DNA from: a virus
IMG/VR virus record: IMGVR_UViG_3300021959_000006
Location: 1 to 35,263 of that record
Direction: 5' to 3' (one strand)
DNA: 35,263 bases
Shown: piece by piece, positions 3,560-34,575 of the stretch
How positions within the stretch are numbered: the stretch's first letter is position 1
Layout of the letters: every line of letters begins with the position of its first letter
Position numbers and translations under genes: made by a program
The notes under the pieces: generated by a model
Seen by the model: the letters and a program-made list of their open reading frames with translations, nothing else
The model's database searches: none
Told to the model about the DNA's origin: nothing

Positions 3560-5173
3560 ATGGATAAACAAGATAATCTTCATAAACGTTTTCAAAATGC
3601 AGTTAGACGTAAAACTAATTGGCGCACTACATATAAAGAGGCTCTTGAGTATTTTTCACCTCAAAGAGATACGTTTGATGATCCTCAAGAAGGTTCTAAG
3701 CGTACTAACACTGATCGTATATTTGACTCTACCGGTCAAGATGCACTGGACGAAGCGGTATCCAACGCACAAGCCGAGATATTTCCACCACAGAAAAATT
3801 GGGGTAAACTTAAATTAGGTCCATTACTTAAAAATAGATCTAGTAATGTTAAGGAACAAGAGAAACAATTAGAAGAAATTACTGATTTATTTTTTACTTC
3901 ACTTCATAATAGTAATTTTGATATTCAAGTAGCAGAATTTTTAGAGGATTGGATGATTGGTACTGGTAACATGCTTATGCACAAAGGTACTATAGATAAA
4001 CCATTTATTTTTGAAGCTATACCATTAGATCAAGTTTATCTTGAAAGAGGCAAATTTGGCTCTGTTGGTGGTAGATTTCGTAAATGGAAATTACCAAATC
4101 ATCTTATTGAAAAAACATGGCCAGATGCTAAGTTATCTCAAACACTTCGAGCAGCAATAGAGACTAACCCATACGAAGAAACTTGTATTATTGAATATAC
4201 TATTGAGGATAGAATTAAAAATAAAGTTCTTACGCAAGATAGAAATGGTAAATCTATTAGTAAAGATCAATTTATCGAGGGATTTCGCTATATAGTCCAG
4301 GAAGAAAAAACAAAAGAAATAATTGTTGAACGTGAAAATAAAAGCCAACCGTGGATTAATGTAAGATATGCAGTATCAGCAGGCGAAGTTTATGGAAGAG
4401 GTCCAGTATTAAAAGCATTAGCTGATAATAAAACTTTAAATAAAACTAAAGAATTAATTCTTAAAAATGCTGCTTTAGCTATATCGGGTATGTGGACAGT
4501 AGTTGATGACGGCATTATCAATCTTGAAAATATTGTAATGGAACCAGGAGCTAAAATACCAGTTATGGCTAATCCAGGTAATCCAAATGGGCCAAGCATT
4601 GCACCGCTTCGAAGTGGCGCTGATTTTAATGTAAGTCAAATTATTATACAAGATTTAGTTAAATCTATTAAAAATATTTTGATGGCTGAACCAATGGGTG
4701 AGATTGACGCACCAGTTAAAACCGCTACTGAAATTGCACATAGAGCGCAAAGAATGGCAAAACGCATGGGTTCACCTTTCGGTCGTATGCAAAGTGAAGG
4801 TGCAGAACAAATTATCATGAGAGGATTATACATATTAGAAGAATTAGGTATGATTAATCTTGAGGGATTTATTGTTGATGGTAATAATATTGGTATTCAG
4901 CATGTGTCGCCATTAGCTGTTGCTCAAGATCAAGAAGAATTAACAGCAATGACAAGATATGCTGAAATTGTTAGTGGCTTCTTTGGCCCACAAGGTTTAA
5001 TGATGATGACTAATCCAGTTGAATTTGGTGCGGAGCTTTCAAGATTACTTGGCGTAAAGTCAAATATTTTACCAACCCAAGAACAAATGGACGCTATTAA
5101 ACAAGTATTAGCTCAACAAGCTGGTGTTGCTCAAGGTGCGCAATTAGAACAACCAGAACAACCAATAGTTTAA
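3560..5173 (+). CDS. Head-tail connector (portal) protein
   Basis: A 537-aa product of the T7 gp8-like connector class, which forms the dodecameric ring through which DNA enters and leaves the head. The N-terminus (RRKTNWRTTYKEALEYFSPQ) is typical of the class, as are the early FDSTGQDALDEAVSNAQ segment and the ENIVMEPGAKIPV and APVKTATEIAHRAQRMAKRMGSPFGRM segments. The C-terminal tail is Gln-rich. Position between terL and scaffold fits. The length is close to T7 gp8 (536 aa). Confidence 0.92.
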   Translation: MDKQDNLHKRFQNAVRRKTNWRTTYKEALEYFSPQRDTFDDPQEGSKRTNTDRIFDSTGQDALDEAVSNAQAEIFPPQKNWGKLKLGPLLKNRSSNVKEQEKQLEEITDLFFTSLHNSNFDIQVAEFLEDWMIGTGNMLMHKGTIDKPFIFEAIPLDQVYLERGKFGSVGGRFRKWKLPNHLIEKTWPDAKLSQTLRAAIETNPYEETCIIEYTIEDRIKNKVLTQDRNGKSISKDQFIEGFRYIVQEEKTKEIIVERENKSQPWINVRYAVSAGEVYGRGPVLKALADNKTLNKTKELILKNAALAISGMWTVVDDGIINLENIVMEPGAKIPVMANPGNPNGPSIAPLRSGADFNVSQIIIQDLVKSIKNILMAEPMGEIDAPVKTATEIAHRAQRMAKRMGSPFGRMQSEGAEQIIMRGLYILEELGMINLEGFIVDGNNIGIQHVSPLAVAQDQEELTAMTRYAEIVSGFFGPQGLMMMTNPVEFGAELSRLLGVKSNILPTQEQMDAIKQVLAQQAGVAQGAQLEQPEQPIV

Positions 5174-16500: not shown

Positions 16501-17811
16501 ATGGTTACAGTACCGTCATTAGAAGATGAAACCCCGTTAGATCAGTACACAGCGACTGCTAGTCAAACTGATTTTAATTTTACATATATGATTTTTGCAA
16601 CGGAAGATATTAAAGTCTACGTTAATAATGTGCTTAAAACTGAAACAACAGATTATGTTGTTAAGCAATCAGATGATAGTGCTATCGTTCCAGCGGATGA
16701 TTTACCAATGGATGGTGGTAAAATTGTTTTTAATTCCGGCCTTAGTTCTGGCGACAAAGTTTCTTTATCTCGTGATATAGGTATTAAAAGATTAACAGGT
16801 TATAAAGTAGCTGGTCCTTTCAGGGCAGACGTAGTCAATGCTGAACTTACTAAACTTTATGCAATCCAACAACAGTTAGAAAGAGATATTAGCCGTAGTG
16901 TAAGGTTAAACGCTTCCGACGCTGAAGGTGGTACTTTAGAAATACCGTCGGATAGAGCTGGTAAATTTTTAGCTTTTAATGCTAATAGAGAAATGATTGC
17001 CTCGGCAGGTTCAGCCGATGGTCTTGTAGTTTCTAGTTATATAGGAACTTTATTAGATGACACAACAGCAAGCGAGGCATTAGATACTTTGGGAATTGCT
17101 GCTTATGCTAAAACTCTATTAGATGATACAACAGCTAGCGAGGCATTAGATACTTTGGGGGTTGCTGCTTTTGCTAAAACTCTATTAGATGATACTGATG
17201 CAGCAACAGCTAGAGCTACTTTAGATGCAGAACAAAAGATAAATTCTTTAACAGCAATTACAGCTTTAGAGGATGCAGATCAATTAGCTGTATCTGATAG
17301 TTCAGATAGTAACAATTCTAAGAAAATAACTTATGCAAATTTAAAATCTGATTTAAGTTCTAACCTTGTACAGGTTGTTAATTATCAAACTAGCGCAGTT
17401 GCTTCTGGTTCAGGAACTATACCATTAGATAATTCAGTTCCACAAAGCAGTGAAGGCAACCAATTCATGTCATTATCGATTACGCCTCAGTCAAGTATAA
17501 ATAAGCTATTTATTCAGGTTATTTTTACAGGAGGAGAAGTTGCTAATACAGATGATAACTTCACTGTAGCTTTATTCAAAGATTCAGATATAGGTGCTTT
17601 AAAAGCTTCGGCAGGAGGTGTTTATGGTAACTCTATTCTAACTATACCATTAAATCACTATATGACTGCTGGCACAACATCAACTATTACATTCAAAGTA
17701 AGAGCAGGACTTTCAAGTGGTAGCATTTACATTAATGGTGCTGCTAATCAGGGGCAAGCTTACGGCGGGGTGAGTTGTTCTTCAATAACAATAATGGAAA
17801 TAAAAGGTTAA
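16501..17811 (+). CDS. Tail fibre protein
   Basis: A 436-aa host-recognition protein. The N-terminal 150 residues (DQYTATASQTDFNFTYMIFATEDIKVYVNN, then LSRDIGIKRLTGYKVAGPFRADVVNAELTKLYAIQQQLERDISRSVRL) match the virion-binding domain of T7-type fibres. A shaft follows with 22-residue repeats containing LLDDTTASEALDTLG, then a beta-rich C-terminal domain (about 300-436) likely to bind the receptor. The next gene begins three bases after its stop. Confidence 0.88.
   Translation: MVTVPSLEDETPLDQYTATASQTDFNFTYMIFATEDIKVYVNNVLKTETTDYVVKQSDDSAIVPADDLPMDGGKIVFNSGLSSGDKVSLSRDIGIKRLTGYKVAGPFRADVVNAELTKLYAIQQQLERDISRSVRLNASDAEGGTLEIPSDRAGKFLAFNANREMIASAGSADGLVVSSYIGTLLDDTTASEALDTLGIAAYAKTLLDDTTASEALDTLGVAAFAKTLLDDTDAATARATLDAEQKINSLTAITALEDADQLAVSDSSDSNNSKKITYANLKSDLSSNLVQVVNYQTSAVASGSGTIPLDNSVPQSSEGNQFMSLSITPQSSINKLFIQVIFTGGEVANTDDNFTVALFKDSDIGALKASAGGVYGNSILTIPLNHYMTAGTTSTITFKVRAGLSSGSIYINGAANQGQAYGGVSCSSITIMEIKG
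17047..17220 (+). repeat. 66-bp tandem repeat in the fibre shaft
   Basis: Units at 17047-17112 and 17113-17178 are nearly identical, and a partial third unit starts at 17179. Each encodes 22 residues beginning TLLDDTTASEALDTLG. They probably form successive turns of the trimeric shaft, and differences in number would change fibre length. Confidence 0.9.
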
Positions 17812-27422: not shown

Positions 27423-27517
27423 CGTTTTTTGCAAGACGGTTAAATCTTAAGTTTTTTAAGATTATTTAAGCACGCAAAAAGTAAAAAATATTTAAGTTTT
27501 ACCGCCTTTAATAACAT

Positions 27518-27545
27518 AATATACTTGTATATTCTTTTATGTCAA
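27518..27545 (-). promoter_or_regulatory. Leftward promoter for the SNF2-to-resolvase operon
   Basis: On the minus strand, TTGACA (27545-27540) is followed after 16 bases by TATATT (27523-27518). An imperfect palindrome, AATATACTTGTATATT, lies between and over the -10. It closely resembles the palindrome at the leftward promoter at 32178-32205, suggesting one regulator for both. Confidence 0.5.
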
Positions 27546-27564: not shown

Positions 27565-28140
27565 TTACAATTTAGGAGTTGTTATATTATTTAAAATCAT
27601 GCGAAAAAGATTTCTCAAAAGAGTGTCGCAATATCCGTTTTGAATCTTAACATCAGCACCTTTTTCTATTAATAACTTTGTAACTTCTAAGCTGTTATTA
27701 GATGCAGCTGAATGTAAAGGAGTTTTGCCATCTTTATTTTCAGCATTAACATCAGCACCTTTTTCGATTAATAGTTTTGCAAGTTTTACTTTGTTATTCC
27801 GTAAAGCATTATATAAAGGAGTGTCGCCCCATTTATTTTTAGCATTAACATCTGCACCTTTTTTAATTAATAGTTCTGCAACTTTAGGGCTGTTATTTAT
27901 TGCAGCCTCATGCAAAGGAGTAAAGCCATATTTATTTTTAGCATTAACATCTGCGCCTTTTTCTATTAATAGTTCTGCAACTTCTAAGCGGTTTTTCCAT
28001 GCAGCCTCATGCAAAGGAGTATCGCCATCTTCATTTTCAGCGTTAACATCTGCACCTTGTTCTATTAATAGCTTTGCTTGCTCTAAATCATTATCTCTAG
28101 CAGCATCAAATAATAGTTCGTTTAAATCTTTGTTTTCCAT
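27565..28140 (-). CDS. Ankyrin repeat protein C
   Basis: A 191-aa protein of about five 33-residue ankyrin repeats (motifs such as GDTPLHEAAWKNRLEVAELLIEKGADVNAKNKYG). Ankyrin solenoids bind other proteins and are often used by bacteria or phages against eukaryotic or host targets. No signal peptide. The start is ATG 28140 because GGAGGTAAATAAA, formed by the end of the preceding gene, provides its Shine-Dalgarno sequence. The last repeat is degenerate and ends NITTPKL instead of the KHGGK tail of the other copies, so the 3' end may have drifted or been frameshifted. Confidence 0.88.
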   Translation of the reverse strand: MENKDLNELLFDAARDNDLEQAKLLIEQGADVNAENEDGDTPLHEAAWKNRLEVAELLIEKGADVNAKNKYGFTPLHEAAINNSPKVAELLIKKGADVNAKNKWGDTPLYNALRNNKVKLAKLLIEKGADVNAENKDGKTPLHSAASNNSLEVTKLLIEKGADVKIQNGYCDTLLRNLFRMILNNITTPKL

Positions 28141-28141
28141 T

Positions 28142-28630
28142 TTATTTACCTCCATGTTTAATTAATAGCTCTGCAACTTCAAAGCTATCATAACGTGCAG
28201 CATAATACAAAGGAGTTTCGCCATATTTATCTTTAGCATTAACATCTGCTCCTTTTTCAATTAATAGTTTTGCAACTTTTACGCTACCATAACGTACAGC
28301 CCAATGCAAAGGAGTATTGCCCCATTTATCTTTAGCATTAACATCAGCCCCTTTTTTTATTAATAACTTTGCAACTTTTACGTTGTTACGCAAGGAAGCC
28401 CTATGTAAAGGAGTATTGCCCCATTTATCTTTAGCATTAACATCTGCGCCTTTTTCGATTAATAACTTTGCAACTTCTACGTTGTTATCAGATGCAGCAT
28501 AATACAAAGGAGTTTCGCCATATTTAGTTACATTAATATCTGCTCCTTTTTCTATTGATAGCTTTGCTATCTCTAAATCATTTTCTAGAGCAGCTTTAAA
28601 TAATAGTTCGTTTAAGTTTTTGTTTTCCAT
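28142..28630 (-). CDS. Ankyrin repeat protein B
   Basis: A 162-aa product of about five ankyrin repeats beginning MENKNLNELLFKAALENDLEIAKLSIEKGADIN and ending LLIKHGGK. It is closely related to proteins A and C. Two consecutive repeats share KDKWGNTPLH and nearly identical DNA 99 bp apart, a sign of recent unit duplication. A TTG at 28642 opens the frame earlier, but the ATG at 28630 aligns with the starts of A and C. No signal peptide. The target protein is unknown. Confidence 0.88.
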   Translation of the reverse strand: MENKNLNELLFKAALENDLEIAKLSIEKGADINVTKYGETPLYYAASDNNVEVAKLLIEKGADVNAKDKWGNTPLHRASLRNNVKVAKLLIKKGADVNAKDKWGNTPLHWAVRYGSVKVAKLLIEKGADVNAKDKYGETPLYYAARYDSFEVAELLIKHGGK

Positions 28631-28642
28631 TTTATTTACCAA

Positions 28643-29065
28643 TTAGTTATTACAAAAATTATGTTTTTTACCACCCTGATATTTAACGGCTAAATTCTGA
28701 TCCAATAGTTTGTCAGCCATATTCTCGCCGTTGATATACACATCAGCTAAAACCCTAAAATATTTGCCTCTTTCTAGGTTTTTTAATATAATACAATTTG
28801 CTTTATCTAGTGATTCTTTTAAATATTCTTTTGCAAGAATTGCTTTAAATTTTTCTTGTGAGCATTTCCCCCTTATTTCAGGTGTATCAACTCCTTTTAT
28901 TCTAACTCCCAAATTTTTACCAAATACATCAAGAGTATTATCTATATTTATAAAGAAAGTGTCGCCATCATATATTTTTACAATTTGCTCTTTTTTTATT
29001 TTTAAGTCCTCAGCGTGTAATAATGCAGGCTTTAATAGGATTGTAATTAATATTAATTTAATCAT
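28643..29065 (-). CDS. Secreted thermonuclease (SNase family)
   Basis: A 140-aa staphylococcal-nuclease-fold enzyme. The start MIKLILITILLKPALLHAED is a signal peptide, with likely cleavage after LLHA, so the mature enzyme should act in the periplasm or outside the cell. Active-site elements are YDGDTF, RIKGVDTPEIRGKC (Arg, Asp, Glu) and GKYFRVLADV (second Arg). It lies between two ankyrin genes and starts at ATG 29065, with its GGAGC signal in the end of ankyrin A. It may attack foreign nucleic acid or recycle nucleotides. Confidence 0.88.
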   Translation of the reverse strand: MIKLILITILLKPALLHAEDLKIKKEQIVKIYDGDTFFINIDNTLDVFGKNLGVRIKGVDTPEIRGKCSQEKFKAILAKEYLKESLDKANCIILKNLERGKYFRVLADVYINGENMADKLLDQNLAVKYQGGKKHNFCNN

Positions 29066-29066
29066 C

Positions 29067-29657
29067 TTATTTAGCTCCATGTTTTTTTAATAATTCTTTA
29101 ACTTCTACACTGTTCCTATATACAGCCACATGCAAAGGAGTGTCGCCATCTTCATCTTTAGCGTTAACATCTGCCCCATTTTCAATTAATAACTCTGCGA
29201 TTTCTAGGATGTTATATTCTGCTGCATGATGCAAAGGAGTGTCGCCCCATTTATTTTTAGTATTAACATCTGCCCCTTTTTTGATTAATAACTTTGCAAA
29301 ATTTAAGTTGTCATTTAATGCAGCCCCATGTAAAGGAGTTCTACCATTTTCATTTTCAACATTAACATCTGCCCCATTTTCTATTAATAACTTTGCAAAA
29401 TTTAAGTTGTCATTTAATGCAGCCCCATGCAAAGGAGTAACGCCCCATTTATTTTTAACATTAACATCTGCCCCTTTAAATATTAATAGTTCTGCAACTT
29501 CTACGCTGTTTCTCCTTGCAGCATAATGTAAAGGAGTATCGCCATCTTCATTTTTAGCGTTAATATCCGCCCCTTGTTCTATTAATAACTTTGCTTGCTC
29601 TAAATCATTTTTCTTAGCAGCATCAAATAGTTGTTCGTTTAAGGTTTCTTTTTCCAT
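29067..29657 (-). CDS. Ankyrin repeat protein A
   Basis: A 196-aa product of about six ankyrin repeats beginning MEKETLNEQLFDAAKKNDLEQAKLLIEQGADINAKNEDG. Two neighbouring repeats share GAALNDNLNFAKLLI; their DNA is identical for some 46 bases at a 99-bp offset (29286-29331 and 29385-29430), showing very recent duplication. The start ATG 29657 follows GGAGGTAAATAAA. It ends VKELLKKHGAK, and that end holds the ribosome-binding signal of the nuclease gene. Confidence 0.9.
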   Translation of the reverse strand: MEKETLNEQLFDAAKKNDLEQAKLLIEQGADINAKNEDGDTPLHYAARRNSVEVAELLIFKGADVNVKNKWGVTPLHGAALNDNLNFAKLLIENGADVNVENENGRTPLHGAALNDNLNFAKLLIKKGADVNTKNKWGDTPLHHAAEYNILEIAELLIENGADVNAKDEDGDTPLHVAVYRNSVEVKELLKKHGAK

Positions 29658-29658
29658 T

Positions 29659-29709
29659 TTATTTACCTCCATGTTTTTTTAGTAATTGAATCTTTCTTTT
29701 TTTTTTCAT
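29659..29709 (-). pseudogene. 16-codon remnant of an ankyrin gene tail
   Basis: Between primase and ankyrin A is a tiny frame MKKKRKIQLLKKHGGK and stop. Its end repeats the C-terminus of the ankyrin proteins (LLKKHGAK, LLIKHGGK) and the junction bases that precede each cassette gene. Its ATG overlaps the primase stop (ATGA). It looks like the tail of a deleted ankyrin gene kept because it supplies the Shine-Dalgarno sequence for ankyrin A; it may still be translated. Confidence 0.55.
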
Positions 29710-31901
29710 TTTTTAAAACCTGATTGAGTTTTACCGTCTATTCTAACTGTGCTGCGCACCCAACCAAGGTGGCGTAATACAGCACCAATTCTTTTTTGTT
29801 CTCTAAAGCCACAAGAGACTATGTCTCTACCAAAACAATTTACCCACACGTGGCGCACTGTTGTTTTGTCTATGTTCTCTCTATCTAACCATTCAACTAT
29901 CTCTGGTTCCCAATCATCTTGGTTAAATCTTTCAGCTTGTTTGTTCTTTGCTATAATATCAGCTTCTAAGTTATCCATATATAATGATTCACCTGCTTTA
30001 TATCTAACTATTGCTTCGGCATAAAGCATTGGTAATATTTCTTTTATACCATCACTATCAATTTTAACTAATTCTATTGGCCACATTCTTCTGTTGCCAG
30101 TTTCATCTTGTAAAAATCTATCTTTATTAGTGGTTGCTACAATAATACATTGTCTTGGTAAATCTCTTGGTAATCTATCATAAGGTAATCTATCTCTATC
30201 AGTTCTTCTTGATAAAAAAGCTTTAACTTCATTCACATCAGCATCATTAAACATAGTAAGTTCCGCATTTTCTACAATTAATTTTGATCTCATACGCAAA
30301 ATAACATCTTTATTATTTACATCGCCTAGATTGTCCGTATACCATTGCGGTTTAATTGCTATGGTTTCCAACAAAGTTGATTTACCAATCCCTTGTTCAC
30401 CAATAAAGATTGGCAGATAATCAAACTTACAGCCAGGTTGATATATTCTACTTACTATTGCTGTAAAAAGTTTAACGCCTAATTCTTGAGAATATTTACT
30501 GTCTTCTGCTTCGCAAAAGTCCGGAAAAAATCGCTCTAATCTTGCTACCTTATCCCATTCTGGCAACCCTTCAAAATAATCTTTGACTGGGTGATACTGA
30601 TTCTTAAATGCTACTGCTCTAGTTGCTTCTAATATATGGCTTCCGCTAGGGTCAAAACCAGCTTTATTAATTTCTTGGCGTATTCTTATAACGTCGTCAT
30701 CATCCAATACTTTATCAATCTCTCCAGTCAGTATTGTAGGTTTATGCCATGGCGCCGGTTGTCGCCAAACAGTATCCATTGAGAATAAATTTACTGCTAG
30801 TTTATCTTTTAATCTCGGTAAATTAGCTATAAATAATTCTGTGTTTTGAGTTCCAAAATTAGTCCTGGAAATATTACCAGAATTATCTTTACCAGTTCTA
30901 ACAAGCTTATCCATCCATGGAATTAAATCAGTTTCTTGTTTTTTTGCCTCATCATCTGATAGTTTATTAAAATCGCCATTGTCTAATTGACATTCTGGTG
31001 GTTCTGCAAAATCAATAGCTACTGATCTTGTCGGAATTTTATTTTTTGAGTAAGTAAAGGCACTATTGATAGTGTGTAAAAATCTATCTTGGCTAAGTGG
31101 TGGTTGATTATTTGTTTGATTATAAGCTGCCAATAGCTCTATGAGCTTCGTTTTACTTAGCCCTTGATCTTTACCTACACAAGCTATTTGATATAGGTTA
31201 TTACCCCTATCCCCTGGCAAAGAGACATCTTGAATTTTTAATAAGTCTGTAAATATTTTTATGTCTGTTGATGCGTCTTTTGGTGTGTTATCGCTTTGGC
31301 TTTCTGCTTGCTCACCTAGTTTTATTCCGTTCTCTCTTTTTAAGAGGTCTAACATTAAATCCTTTGGCAGTTCTTTTAAATGTGAGAAGCCACTAGTTAA
31401 TAAGGATAATTTATATTTGTTTCCATTAGGTAGTTTTGATTCTGGTATTACTACTTGTCTTTTAAGTGATTTAAATTCTACACCTGCAAAACCCTTTAAT
31501 GAATTAGCTATTGTTAATTGTAAGTGTTCTGGGTTTTTCTTATAATATAGATGAAGTCCTCCGCTTGCTGTGTTAGTTATTACTGCTGCATTTGCAGTTA
31601 AGTCATATTTATAATGTTCACTTAATTTCTTTAGGGAATTTGTACCATTGGTATTGTCGTGATTATCAACATCCACAATAATCATATCGTCTGGTATTAC
31701 AAAACCTGCACTATTAATAGTGTCAAAATCGCCATTGTCTAATTGACTTTTAGAAAGCTCAAGCGTGGTTTTCTGCCAGTTTTTTTGAACGGGGATTTTA
31801 CCATTTAGTGGGATGATAGTAAAGCCTGCTTTGTGGTAGCTCTTAATAATATTAATCAGAGCTGGGTTGACTATTGTTCGTTTTTGTTTTTGATTATCCA
31901 T
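29706..31901 (-). CDS. Primase-helicase (Prim-Pol plus VirE-type ATPase)
   Basis: A 731-aa bifunctional replication protein. The N-terminal Prim-Pol domain shows AGFTIIPLNGKIPVQKNWQKTT, the catalytic MIIVDVDNHD and GGLHLYYKK. A helical linker follows (PriCT-like, GDRGNNLYQIACVGKDQGLSKTKLIELLAAYN). The C-terminal VirE-like ATPase has Walker A in GEQGIGKSTLL, later LPRQCIIVATTNKDRFLQDETGNRRMWPIEL. The segment QLDNGDF occurs twice (about residues 53-59 and 306-312), each encoded by a 23-nt dispersed repeat. Confidence 0.92.
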   Translation of the reverse strand: MDNQKQKRTIVNPALINIIKSYHKAGFTIIPLNGKIPVQKNWQKTTLELSKSQLDNGDFDTINSAGFVIPDDMIIVDVDNHDNTNGTNSLKKLSEHYKYDLTANAAVITNTASGGLHLYYKKNPEHLQLTIANSLKGFAGVEFKSLKRQVVIPESKLPNGNKYKLSLLTSGFSHLKELPKDLMLDLLKRENGIKLGEQAESQSDNTPKDASTDIKIFTDLLKIQDVSLPGDRGNNLYQIACVGKDQGLSKTKLIELLAAYNQTNNQPPLSQDRFLHTINSAFTYSKNKIPTRSVAIDFAEPPECQLDNGDFNKLSDDEAKKQETDLIPWMDKLVRTGKDNSGNISRTNFGTQNTELFIANLPRLKDKLAVNLFSMDTVWRQPAPWHKPTILTGEIDKVLDDDDVIRIRQEINKAGFDPSGSHILEATRAVAFKNQYHPVKDYFEGLPEWDKVARLERFFPDFCEAEDSKYSQELGVKLFTAIVSRIYQPGCKFDYLPIFIGEQGIGKSTLLETIAIKPQWYTDNLGDVNNKDVILRMRSKLIVENAELTMFNDADVNEVKAFLSRRTDRDRLPYDRLPRDLPRQCIIVATTNKDRFLQDETGNRRMWPIELVKIDSDGIKEILPMLYAEAIVRYKAGESLYMDNLEADIIAKNKQAERFNQDDWEPEIVEWLDRENIDKTTVRHVWVNCFGRDIVSCGFREQKRIGAVLRHLGWVRSTVRIDGKTQSGFKK
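30969..30991 (-). repeat. 23-nt dispersed repeat, copy 1 (inside primase)
   Basis: Identical over 23 bases to 31725-31747 and nearly so to 32219-32242. In the primase frame it encodes QLDNGDF within the linker between the two domains (EPPECQLDNGDFNKLSDD). Confidence 0.85.
31725..31747 (-). repeat. 23-nt dispersed repeat, copy 2 (inside primase)
   Basis: Same sequence and same reading frame as copy 1, encoding QLDNGDF in the Prim-Pol domain just before the strand with the catalytic aspartates. The flanks outside the 23 bases are unrelated to those of copy 1. Confidence 0.85.
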
Positions 31902-31913
31902 AGGTCTTTTATT

Positions 31914-32132
31914 TTAATCTTCATCGGTTGAGTTGTTACTTATTAGTGAACGCTGAACCGCTATTGCTCCGTTGCGTTCCATTTGTTTTTCAACCTCATC
32001 AAGATCAAAACGCCAATGTCTACCTAGTTTCTTAGCTGGTATTAAACCAAATCTAGCCAAGTCTCTTACATATTGTGGGTTAAGAGAAAGTATCTTTGCT
32101 AGTTCTAGTGAAGTTAGGTTTTTTTTATCCAT
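31914..32132 (-). CDS. Excisionase-type helix-turn-helix protein
   Basis: A 72-aa MerR/excisionase-like DNA-binding protein: LTSLELAKILSLNPQYVRDLARFGLIPAKKLGRHWRFDLDEVEKQM, with the typical recognition helix and wing (GRHWRF). No integrase is found in the window, so it is more likely a transcription regulator or replication factor than a true excisionase. It is the first gene after a strong leftward promoter and lies 12 bases before the primase. Confidence 0.85.
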   Translation of the reverse strand: MDKKNLTSLELAKILSLNPQYVRDLARFGLIPAKKLGRHWRFDLDEVEKQMERNGAIAVQRSLISNNSTDED

Positions 32133-32166
32133 GTTTGTTACAAAATATTATTAAACGACAACAATT

Positions 32167-32178
32167 TATACATGTATA
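32167..32178. promoter_or_regulatory. Palindromic operator candidate
   Basis: TATACATGTATA is a perfect 12-bp palindrome touching the -10 of the leftward promoter. A near-copy (TATACTTGTATA) sits at the other leftward promoter, 27523-27532. Both suggest one dimeric repressor acting on the two leftward units. Confidence 0.45.
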
Positions 32179-32205
32179 TTATGTTGTTGGTTTTGTAGTT
32201 GTCAA
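32178..32205 (-). promoter_or_regulatory. Leftward early promoter
   Basis: On the minus strand TTGACA (32205-32200), 16 bases, then CATAAT (32183-32178). It would transcribe the HTH, primase and ankyrin cassette. The third copy of the 23-nt repeat lies just upstream. Confidence 0.6.
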
Positions 32206-32218
32206 GTTGAAATATTAA

Positions 32219-32242
32219 AAAACTGCCATTGTCTAATTTGAC
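32219..32242 (-). repeat. 23-nt dispersed repeat, copy 3 (intergenic)
   Basis: Matches copies 1 and 2 in the primase except for a swapped base pair and one inserted T. It lies outside any gene, upstream of the leftward promoter, which shows that the repeat is not only a protein-level feature. Confidence 0.75.
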
Positions 32243-32254
32243 GTTTCTATTTAA

Positions 32255-32446
32255 TTAGAATAAAGGTTCGTATAATTCTCCATTGTCATGGAGTTTTTTA
32301 TAATGTAAATATTTAATTCTTGCTGAGGCTGCTAATTGTTTTTGATTGTGCCATAAATACTCATGCATAGCATCCTCATAGTATTTCATGGCTTTTAATA
32401 TATCTATTAAATTATTATCTTCTGAAACATAATTTTTATTTTCCAA
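32255..32446 (-). CDS. Small hypothetical protein
   Basis: A 63-aa helical, aromatic-rich product (MENKNYVSEDNNLIDILKAMKYYEDAMHEYLWHNQKQLAASARIKYLHYKK). No family recognised. It is the first leftward gene from the divergent intergenic region with TATTACATA boxes, so it may share control with the tandem-HTH gene opposite. Confidence 0.55.
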   Translation of the reverse strand: MENKNYVSEDNNLIDILKAMKYYEDAMHEYLWHNQKQLAASARIKYLHYKKLHDNGELYEPLF

Positions 32447-32462
32447 GAAATAAATACAATAG

Positions 32463-32491
32463 TTGACAATTAATATAATATGTAATAGTAT
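32463..32491 (+). promoter_or_regulatory. Promoter for the tandem-HTH gene
   Basis: TTGACA at 32463-32468 and TAGTAT at 32486-32491 with a 17-base spacer. The first TATGTAATA box (32479-32487) overlaps the spacer and -10, so binding there should block the promoter. Confidence 0.45.
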
Positions 32492-32561
32492 TAATCATAT
32501 TACATAAATTAATAAAATACATATTACAAATAAGCAATTTATGTAATATGTATTTTATTAA
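32479..32561. repeat. Two nested inverted-repeat pairs with TATTACATA boxes
   Basis: TATGTAATA (32479-32487) faces TATTACATA (32498-32506). Next to them a perfect 20-bp inverted repeat has arms at 32509-32528 and 32542-32561 around a 13-base spacer, each containing the related ATATTACA/TGTAATAT. The same boxes recur in the putative origin near 34701-34741. They lie just upstream of a tandem-HTH gene, which may bind them. Confidence 0.75.
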
Positions 32562-32580
32562 CTTTAAAACAATAATTAAC

Positions 32581-32865
32581 ATGGAAATAAACAAAAAAGA
32601 ATTTATTAAATATTATAATAAGTTAACCCTGCGAGAGGTAGCCATTATTTTTGGCTCATCCCGTAGCAAAGTTTATATGCACGCAAAAATGCTTGGCCTT
32701 TCTAAAAGAAAAGCAAAACCATCAATTAGCAGCAAAATATCTGATGAACAGTTTATTAAATACTATAACCAACTACCAACAAAAGATTTAGCTAAAATAC
32801 TTGATGTAAGCCGTAGGGGCGTTTGGTTAAAAGCTAAACAATTAGGCCTTTCTAAAAGAAAATAA
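32581..32865 (+). CDS. Tandem helix-turn-helix protein
   Basis: A 94-aa product made of two similar units: FIKYYNKLTLREVAIIFGSS...LGLSKRK and FIKYYNQLPTKDLAKILDVS...LGLSKRK. Each looks like a small HTH domain (xLxxREVAxxxGxSRxxVxxxAKxLGL), so one polypeptide could bind two half-sites. The start ATG 32581 is preferred over 32548 because its leader (TTATTAACTTTAAAACAAT) matches those of the following genes. It may autoregulate through the boxes upstream. Confidence 0.75.
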   Translation: MEINKKEFIKYYNKLTLREVAIIFGSSRSKVYMHAKMLGLSKRKAKPSISSKISDEQFIKYYNQLPTKDLAKILDVSRRGVWLKAKQLGLSKRK

Positions 32866-32885
32866 AAACTTTCTTAAAAATATAT

Positions 32886-32944
32886 CTTGACATTTCAAGA
32901 AATTAATTTTATACTTATATTATACCTTGATATTTCAAGGTATA
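32886..32944 (+). promoter_or_regulatory. Rightward early promoter flanked by two operators
   Basis: TTGACA (32887-32892), 17 bases, TATACT (32910-32915). Over the -35 is the palindrome CTTGA-CATT-TCAAG (32886-32899). At the start site is a perfect inverted repeat with 10-bp arms, TATACCTTGA and TCAAGGTATA (32921-32944). Both share the core CTTGAYATTTCAAG, a convincing repressor-site pair. Confidence 0.75.
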
Positions 32945-32980
32945 TTTTAACTTATTAACTTTAATTAAACAAAAACGATT

Positions 32981-33391
32981 ATGACTAATATAGAAACTAA
33001 AAAATCAGTCGAAGAGATAAAAGCTTTTTTAGCTGAACTACAAGAAAGCAGCAATTTTGAACTTGCAGATAGTCTGCAAGATTGTTTCAGTGATGAAGAA
33101 CTAGAAGAGTTAGACCAAGACAACCCAACAGGTTGTTTTGAATCACTTTTAGAATCACTGGAGGAAAACGGTTATTTTGACATAGAAATAATCTACTATG
33201 ACAAAGCTATAGAATATTTAAGTAAGAATGACCCGAGTTTAATATATTCTTTAGAGATTGCCAATGATCTAGGTTACACAATAGACAATCTAAATAGTGA
33301 GACGCTAGCTAGCTTATTAGCTAGTGGAATAGAGCGTAATAGATTCTATGAGCTTCAAAGCGACATAGAAGATTTTTTTACTAACCTTTAA
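32981..33391 (+). CDS. Acidic early protein
   Basis: A 136-aa product with roughly a quarter Asp/Glu and few basic residues, predicted mostly helical (FSDEELEELDQDNPTGCFESLLESLEENGYFDIEIIYYDKAIEYLSKNDPSLIYSLEIANDLGY). The IYYDKAIEYLxxNDPSLxxSLEIANxxGY pattern is recurrent among small phage and plasmid proteins of unknown function. Strong acidity and early position would fit a DNA mimic such as an anti-restriction protein, but this is inference only. Confidence 0.7.
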   Translation: MTNIETKKSVEEIKAFLAELQESSNFELADSLQDCFSDEELEELDQDNPTGCFESLLESLEENGYFDIEIIYYDKAIEYLSKNDPSLIYSLEIANDLGYTIDNLNSETLASLLASGIERNRFYELQSDIEDFFTNL

Positions 33392-33403
33392 ACAAAAACG
33401 ATT

Positions 33404-33766
33404 ATGATAAATTATTACATAAAAACAACAACTGAAATTTTCAAAGATGATTTTAACGAAGGCAAAAGTTTTGAGTCTTTTAATGGTTGGCAAAACAACA
33501 GCGTTGTAAAAGGTGAAAACCCTATGCAAGCCGTTAGAAACTACTTTGAGAAAGTGCTTTTCTATTCTTTTGAGGAAAAGCACGCACATATTGAACACGA
33601 ACTAAACGGCGTTAATTGCCTGTTATATTCCAACTATGTGGATAATGATAATATAGAGATTGACCCCGACGGCGAGGAAATGGCCAAATTCAAAAAAGCA
33701 GAGATACAGCTTTTTATAGCCGATACATATCTTGAAATTTTTGAACTAGTGCCAGCCAAACTTTAA
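33404..33766 (+). CDS. Hypothetical early protein
   Basis: A 120-aa acidic product (MINYYIKTTTEIFKDDFNEGKSFESFNGWQNNSVVKGENPMQAVRNYFEKVLFYSF...). Mixed strands and helices; no family recognised. It starts after the repeated leader AAACAAAAACGATTATG. It lies between the acidic protein and a row of very small genes. Confidence 0.68.
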   Translation: MINYYIKTTTEIFKDDFNEGKSFESFNGWQNNSVVKGENPMQAVRNYFEKVLFYSFEEKHAHIEHELNGVNCLLYSNYVDNDNIEIDPDGEEMAKFKKAEIQLFIADTYLEIFELVPAKL

Positions 33767-33795
33767 CTTATTAACTTTAATTAAACAAAACGATT

Positions 33796-33939
33796 ATGAC
33801 TAATACAATAAATATTAAAAACGAATCAAAAAACATAGATATTAAATTATCCATCGAAAACGTGCCTTTAATAATGGAAATGCTACGACAGTCTCAATTA
33901 TCTAAAGGCTTTAAAAAAGTAAAATTAACATTCAAATAA
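33796..33939 (+). CDS. 47-aa hypothetical protein
   Basis: The product begins MTNTINIKNESKNIDIKLSI and ends in a basic segment (KGFKKVKLTFK). It is preceded by a near-perfect copy of the leader found at 32948-32980, which strongly supports it as a real gene. Function unknown. Confidence 0.6.
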   Translation: MTNTINIKNESKNIDIKLSIENVPLIMEMLRQSQLSKGFKKVKLTFK

Positions 33940-33956
33940 ACAAAACGAGGTAAACA

Positions 33957-34103
33957 ATGCTATTAATAAAACAATCAATAAAAGCGATTTTAATAATGAT
34001 TTGCTTTATGTTCTTATTTTATCAAGGACTTGTGAGAGCAGATAAACAATGTAAAGAAGCTAATTATAACCATGCAGATTATAGATTCTGCATGGGCATT
34101 TAA
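33957..34103 (+). CDS. 48-aa secreted or membrane-anchored small protein
   Basis: The N-terminal hydrophobic stretch (AILIMICFMFLFYQGLVRA) looks like a signal peptide or anchor. The short remainder has two Cys (C32, C45) that could form a disulfide in the periplasm. It has a clear CGAGGTAAACAATG ribosome-binding site, unlike its neighbours. Small envelope proteins in early phage regions sometimes act in superinfection exclusion; that is speculation here. Confidence 0.6.
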   Translation: MLLIKQSIKAILIMICFMFLFYQGLVRADKQCKEANYNHADYRFCMGI

Positions 34104-34132
34104 CAACAATATTAATTAAAATAAAAACGATT

Positions 34133-34315
34133 ATGACTGATAATAATAACAATAATAAAATAGAAAACTTAATAGACGGCAGAATATTAACAGAACAAGA
34201 AAAGCAAATTATAACTTGCGAATCTTGCGATGAACAAAATTTATGGGTAGATATGCCAGAAAGCAGCCCTACAATATGCCAAAAATGCAGGTTTAGCACA
34301 TATCCCAATCTTTAA
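34133..34315 (+). CDS. 60-aa zinc-ribbon-like protein
   Basis: Two CxxC pairs (CESC at residues 29-32 and CQKC at 49-52) are spaced for one zinc site. The N-terminus is Asn-rich. It is preceded by AAAATAAAAACGATTATG, a version of the repeated leader. Possible nucleic-acid or protein binder; no specific family. Confidence 0.65.
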   Translation: MTDNNNNNKIENLIDGRILTEQEKQIITCESCDEQNLWVDMPESSPTICQKCRFSTYPNL

Positions 34316-34341
34316 TAACATTTTAAAATAGAAATATCATT

Positions 34342-34575
34342 ATGAGTAAAAAAATTAATTCAAAATATCAACGTAAAAATGGAACTATAATGAAACAGAT
34401 TAATTTAGCTGTAAAGGAAGATATAGCGGACAAATTTAACTATCTTTGCGATGGTTTAAGTAAGTCCGCTATTTTTAGCCAATGGGTTAATGAAAAAGCA
34501 AAGGAGATGAACTTAATAGAACCATCAGAGAAAAAAGTAAATACAAAATCAAAATATTCAATTCTAGGTGATTAA
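34342..34575 (+). CDS. Ribbon-helix-helix-like small protein
   Basis: A 77-aa basic product. After a Lys-rich N-terminus comes MKQINLAVKEDIADKFNYLCDGLSKSAIFSQWVNEKAKEM, which has the strand-helix-helix spacing of MetJ/Arc-type DNA-binding proteins. ATG 34342 is used; an internal ATG at 34390 would leave just the domain. It abuts the origin-like region, so it might act there. Confidence 0.55.
   Translation: MSKKINSKYQRKNGTIMKQINLAVKEDIADKFNYLCDGLSKSAIFSQWVNEKAKEMNLIEPSEKKVNTKSKYSILGD

Follow-up and report, generated by a model that had tools for sequence, protein, structure and literature searches.

Within the 35,263-nt virus record IMGVR_UViG_3300021959_000006 from IMG/VR, analysed over its whole length and referred to as the window hereafter, a 23-nt repeat occurs twice in frame inside a primase-helicase gene and once more, slightly altered, in the intergenic DNA before the operon of this gene. 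Judged from sequence comparison, it is reasonably probable that these repeats represent one directional DNA-binding site that forms part of replication control or initiation. The copies share one strand, two of their positions are conserved among related viruses, and in one group of relatives the intergenic and the intragenic copy have changed their sequence together.

Three copies of one site

The 23-mer AAAATCGCCATTGTCTAATTGAC is present at 30969-30991 and 31725-31747 with zero mismatches, and both copies, which share one reading frame of the minus-strand gene for the 731-aa primase, are translated as QLDNGDF. This is what the preliminary description of the window had reported, and its near-copy at 32219 was found as well, differing from the 23-mer by two substitutions and one extra base. 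The window's virus is termed W in the following, and its three sites are:

30969..30991, minus strand: S2, 23 nt identical to S1, primase codons 305-311
31725..31747, minus strand: S1, GTCAATTAGACAATGGCGATTTT, primase codons 53-59
32219..32242, minus strand: S0, GTCAAATTAGACAATGGCAGTTTT, intergenic, with 19 nt between the end of its core and the -35 of the operon promoter

S0 is located between the gene of a helix-turn-helix (HTH) protein (31914-32132) and the upstream open reading frame (ORF). All three sites lie on the primase strand, separated in W by 494 and 756 bp. They consist of a core of ~12 nt, TTAGACAATGGC, with AT-rich flanks, and are directional and non-palindromic. In 100 dinucleotide shuffles no match to the 23-mer was obtained, even with up to three mismatches. 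A weight-matrix scan of the window gave 30.5, 30.5 and 27.0 bits for the sites, scores which are circular since the matrix was built from S0, S1 and S2, while the next best position reached 11.7 bits; the scan revealed no further copy in the 35 kb.

Conservation of position among relatives

Scans of IMG/VR yielded 14 loci with a related primase (L numbers below), which form about six lineages by primase identity: W with L002-L006 (92-93%) and the fragment L014; L007 and L008-L010 (64-65%); L011, L012 and the fragment L013 (59-67%); and L033 (54%). The number of relatives is small, with the 93% group amounting to a single lineage. No relative was confirmed in 84,980 bacterial and archaeal species genomes, the best phage record has 25% identity to the primase across most of the protein, and the phage collection searched contained no close cultured relative.

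S1 is kept in all lineages of at least 59% identity that reach the N-terminus (W to L012), and in L033 it is replaced by a different repeat. S0 is kept in L002-L006, L008, L010, L011 and L012. S2 is an exact copy in W, differs by one base in L002 and L003 and by three in L004-L006, reads ATAGACAATGGC in L007 and is absent from L008, L011 and L012; it is situated in a linker whose length varies, and its residues are not conserved. The repeat had been described as inserted into the primase, a wording that suits S2 in its variable linker, while the presence of S1 throughout these lineages speaks against it.

Eleven records were searched whole and gave 32 matches when a single mismatch was tolerated, spread over nine records, with two records lacking any. 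Within each record these matches all share one strand, and in records that contain the primase it is the primase strand. The conserved stretch comprises ~18-20 nt and occurs in 2-6 copies per record, on a single strand wherever matched.

Codon identity and joint change of the sites

One might argue that S1 reflects ordinary protein conservation and that the other sites resemble it by chance, as LDNG at S1 is common to primases that are 93 to 64% identical. We give next to no credence to this explanation: exact repeats of 23 nt are practically never expected by chance, the residues of S2 are unconserved, the codons at S1 are kept, and the joint change of S0 and S1 described below already contradicts it. 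Among five lineages, synonymous identity is 1.03-1.21 times the codon-usage expectation, so the synonymous sites of the primase are close to saturated. When 726 five-codon windows are ranked by how far their codon identity exceeds the codon-usage expectation, S1 comes first, a signal that counts only because the position had been named beforehand. All five lineages use TTA GAC at S1, which is one of two identical-codon pairs among 162 conserved residue pairs. Equal residues with different codons, regarded in the preliminary description as the mark of ordinary protein conservation, are thus not what S1 displays.

In L011 and L012 (~59-60% identical), the core is TTAGACCAGGGC at S0 and either TTAGACCAGGGC or TTAGACCAGGGT at S1, instead of the W type TTAGACAATGGC. 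Within S1, the change between TTAGACAATGGC and TTAGACCAGGGC/T turned LDNG into LDQG, or the reverse; where N became Q in the protein, the intergenic copy changed likewise. S0 and S1 of L011 share 18 identical nt. Identical paired base changes at two separate sites are hard to explain without a common reader or copying between the sites.

L033 might provide a further case. The W motif was searched there without a match, and we therefore counted dispersed 10-mers blindly on the primase strand of this contig. ACGGGGCTTT ranked first, with 4 copies against 0.0096 expected, one of them at the S1 position (5404) and another (4654) preceding the operon -35 by ~80 nt. If one mismatch is allowed, the count rises to 7 where 0.43 would be expected, and 200 shuffles never produced as many. 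In addition, a 68-nt repeat present in two intergenic copies agrees with the S1 region of L033 at 19 of 21 nt. These copies (2922-2989 and 4040-4107) are 97% identical and contain a terminator-like hairpin. Since the intergenic copies resemble terminator hairpins, the directional repeat of L033 is suggestive as a counterpart of the W sites. The 21-nt pattern was found in no other IMG/VR contig.

It is a tentative idea that each lineage possesses, at a fixed place of its replication gene, a private recognition word (the W, CAG and L033 types) which is rewritten together with its intergenic copies and thereby marks an origin or control element lineage by lineage. If true, such a signature might give each phage a private specificity of replication or incompatibility.

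Tandem arrays and the question of mobility

Five contigs (L028-L032, of which L029 and L032 share contigs with L004 and L005) carry 3-6 tandem copies with a unit of 32 or 36 nt upstream of another early promoter, which is of the TTGACA type. The array unit of L031, consisting of left flank and core, equals S0 of L002 over 28 nt; a derivation of the array from S2, which had been considered, was dropped for this reason. Tandem slippage explains the variation in array copy number.

The preliminary description likened the repeat to in-frame mobile micro-elements such as Rickettsia palindromic elements (RPEs), which would copy themselves in frame into genes as well as between genes. Such an origin would be in line with array copies that vary from 0 to 6 among near relatives, with the 28 nt shared by the L031 array and the S0 of L002, and with the placement of S2 in a linker of variable length. 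However, we regard it as very improbable. The copies occupy a single strand and two positions that persist although the proteins have diverged by more than 40%, and they change jointly. Versions of one locus with and without the repeat, at unrelated positions in near-identical phages, were not seen. The shared stretch of 18-28 nt has no defined ends, is no palindrome and remains far below the ~150 bp of RPEs (PMC10969869). The 24-base site pattern has no match in the 84,980 species genomes, and no copy was found in phage records (INPHARED) or plasmids (PLSDB). Within IMG/VR the site is limited to the clade, matches outside it being ordinary coding or start-codon contexts.

The operon and a candidate binder

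The sites lie upstream of or within an operon with the following features:

29706..31901, minus strand: primase-helicase gene with Prim-Pol, PriCT_1 and VapE-like domains (Pfam; PHROGs)
31914..32132, minus strand: first gene of the operon, encoding a 72-aa HTH_17/excisionase-like protein (Pfam HTH_17, 1.4e-9)
32176..32205, minus strand: likely promoter of the HTH-primase operon, TTGACA-18-TAATAT

The HTH protein carries the PHROG label excisionase / transcriptional regulator, and relatives of solved structure were not detected by sequence. In every relative whose sequence extends that far, its gene directly precedes the primase, except that L004 has a gene between the two. By eye, this intervening gene (4900-6000 of L004) was judged to be C5 DNA methyltransferase-like. 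The HTH_17 protein is a candidate binder of the sites.

A TATACATGTATA palindrome is located at the -10 of the likely operon promoter. A TATACATGTATATTATGTTGTT element at 32167-32188 overlaps this -10 and recurs in inverted orientation at 27510-27531 over another promoter with its -35 at 27545; it is likely an operator common to both promoters.

The structure model of the primase is confident only in the N-terminal half and at the C-terminal end (mean predicted local distance difference test score, pLDDT, 56.6). S1 corresponds to the last part of a helix and the loop after it in the confident Prim-Pol domain, while S2 falls into a linker between PriCT and helicase that is predicted to be disordered (pLDDT <50). 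In the model, both positions look tolerant of extra residues.

In W, L002, L004, L008 and L012, S0 precedes the -35 by 19-24 nt, as would be fitting for an operator; the site-to--35 distances are 19, 19, 22, 24 and 36 nt. In L011, S0 is displaced, with a gene between S0 and the promoter. One has to consider that the sites serve transcription control alone: an AlpA-like HTH_17 protein would bind S0 and the arrays, and the copies inside the gene would be roadblocks or secondary sites, with no origin involved. Both S0 and the arrays precede TTGACA promoters, and AlpA itself offers a precedent (PMC6092414). However, the most widely kept site is S1, inside the gene, the distances to the -35 keep no helical phase, and the gene in front of the promoter of L011 does not suit this explanation either. 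We thus consider it rather unlikely.

RNA-level and origin signals

The preliminary description had also offered a recurring protein- or RNA-binding site as an alternative. Its DNA-level part is supported by the results above, while its RNA part fared poorly. A target in the operon transcript, for instance of a small RNA or a translational regulator, would have a parallel in the immunity targets of satellite P4, and every copy does have the sense orientation relative to the operon or to the genes upstream of it. However, S0 of W is upstream of the likely promoter and hence outside that transcript. The folds differ between copies, so that no conserved RNA fold of the site was obtained, no Rfam family covers it, and no complementary copy was found elsewhere in the window. 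An RNA target is consequently improbable.

With regard to origins, several direct repeats of the same orientation, in the ~17-22 bp range of iterons, are present. DnaA boxes are not enriched. The early genes are C-rich at third positions on their own coding strand in either direction, including those at 32548-33766.

Proposed replication control or initiation through a DNA site

We favor a site that is read as DNA within the replication module. A protein of the operon, either the HTH_17 protein or the primase-helicase itself, would bind the sites. The place of S0 ahead of the operon promoter suggests autoregulation; the conservation of S1 points to an origin element within the gene or a second control site.

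Several observations weigh against this reading. S0 was not found in L007, S2 has decayed in sister phages to TTAGACGATGGC and TTAGATGATAGC, and the spacing between S0 and S1 ranges from 441 to 1582 nt among records. W and L003 are without an array at the homologous promoter, and W shows no iteron-type clustering with regular spacing beside an AT-rich unwinding element. The third-position GC skew shifts near S2 in some lineages only. Column shuffles equal the best codon score in 18-25% of trials, which makes the codon identity at S1 a moderate signal if taken alone, and the case of L033 is a single contig that was recognised after the fact.

For phages with a Prim-Pol/VapE primase-helicase, we found no description of an origin of this kind. 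The conserved site inside the gene, together with the co-changing site upstream of the promoter, provides a concrete candidate of 20 bp, and the three natural variants (AAT, CAG and L033 types) permit a comparison of specificity between binder and site.

Genome and surroundings

The ends of the window share a 127-nt repeat, hence the virus genome is probably circular with 35,136 bp. Its protein set is podovirus-like (head-tail connector, capsid, DNA polymerase, exonuclease, a Gp2.5-like protein and a RuvC-like resolvase) and includes a T7 gp14-like protein with a score below the curated cut-off. No integrase was seen among the window proteins scanned.

An accessory block at 32255-34570 is inverted in W compared to L003, L029 and L031, with one breakpoint adjoining S0 and the second near 34571. 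This region comprises an early promoter at 32887 with two CTTGA[CT]ATTTCAAG palindromes (32880-32945), likely repressor sites; L011 carries similar TCTTGACAATTCAAGAA repeats. A protein of 105 aa encoded at 32548-32865 contains two HTH-like repeats and bears the PHROG label 'transcriptional regulator, D5-like'. Farther away, the ORFs at 27565-29672 are made of 99-nt repeats and probably encode ankyrin-type repeat proteins, and the C-terminal part of the ORF at 16501-17811 resembles the Pgp3 C-terminal domain family PF05475, slightly under the curated cut-off.

Comparison with known systems

RPEs resemble the repeats described here in that they occur in frame within a coding gene; however, RPEs are palindromic, ~150 bp long (PMC10969869) and found in many unrelated genes. 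The nearest precedents are lambda, iteron plasmids, the PICI modules and pRN1. In the orf56/orf904 operon of pRN1, a small transcription repressor is followed by a primase-helicase replication protein; the candidate origin of pRN1 is a stem-loop located beyond the 3' end of that gene. In E. coli phage-inducible chromosomal islands (PICIs), AlpA is encoded together with pri-rep and activates its own expression (PMC6092414). The alpA/pri-rep-ori modules of PICIs share with W a small HTH regulator encoded with a primase-helicase and repeats near the module. In contrast to PICIs, the repeats of W are placed before and inside the primase gene, and its scanned proteins include no integrase.

Iteron plasmids such as RK2, P1 and R6K possess 2-7 direct repeats of commonly 17-22 bp (PMC4980987). 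Directional repeats are common to both, and some relatives of W carry tandem arrays as well; in contrast to the plasmids, the spacing here is not fixed, W is without arrays, and initiator binding and the origin role are putative. The lambda origin, with four iterons, sits inside the initiator gene O (PMC3985674). While the lambda iterons are clustered, the sites of W are single copies hundreds of bases apart, one of them is outside the gene, and the gene encodes a Prim-Pol/VapE primase-helicase. Nevertheless, both systems have direct repeats of ~19 bp in the gene of a replication protein, where the same site would be read as DNA and as protein.
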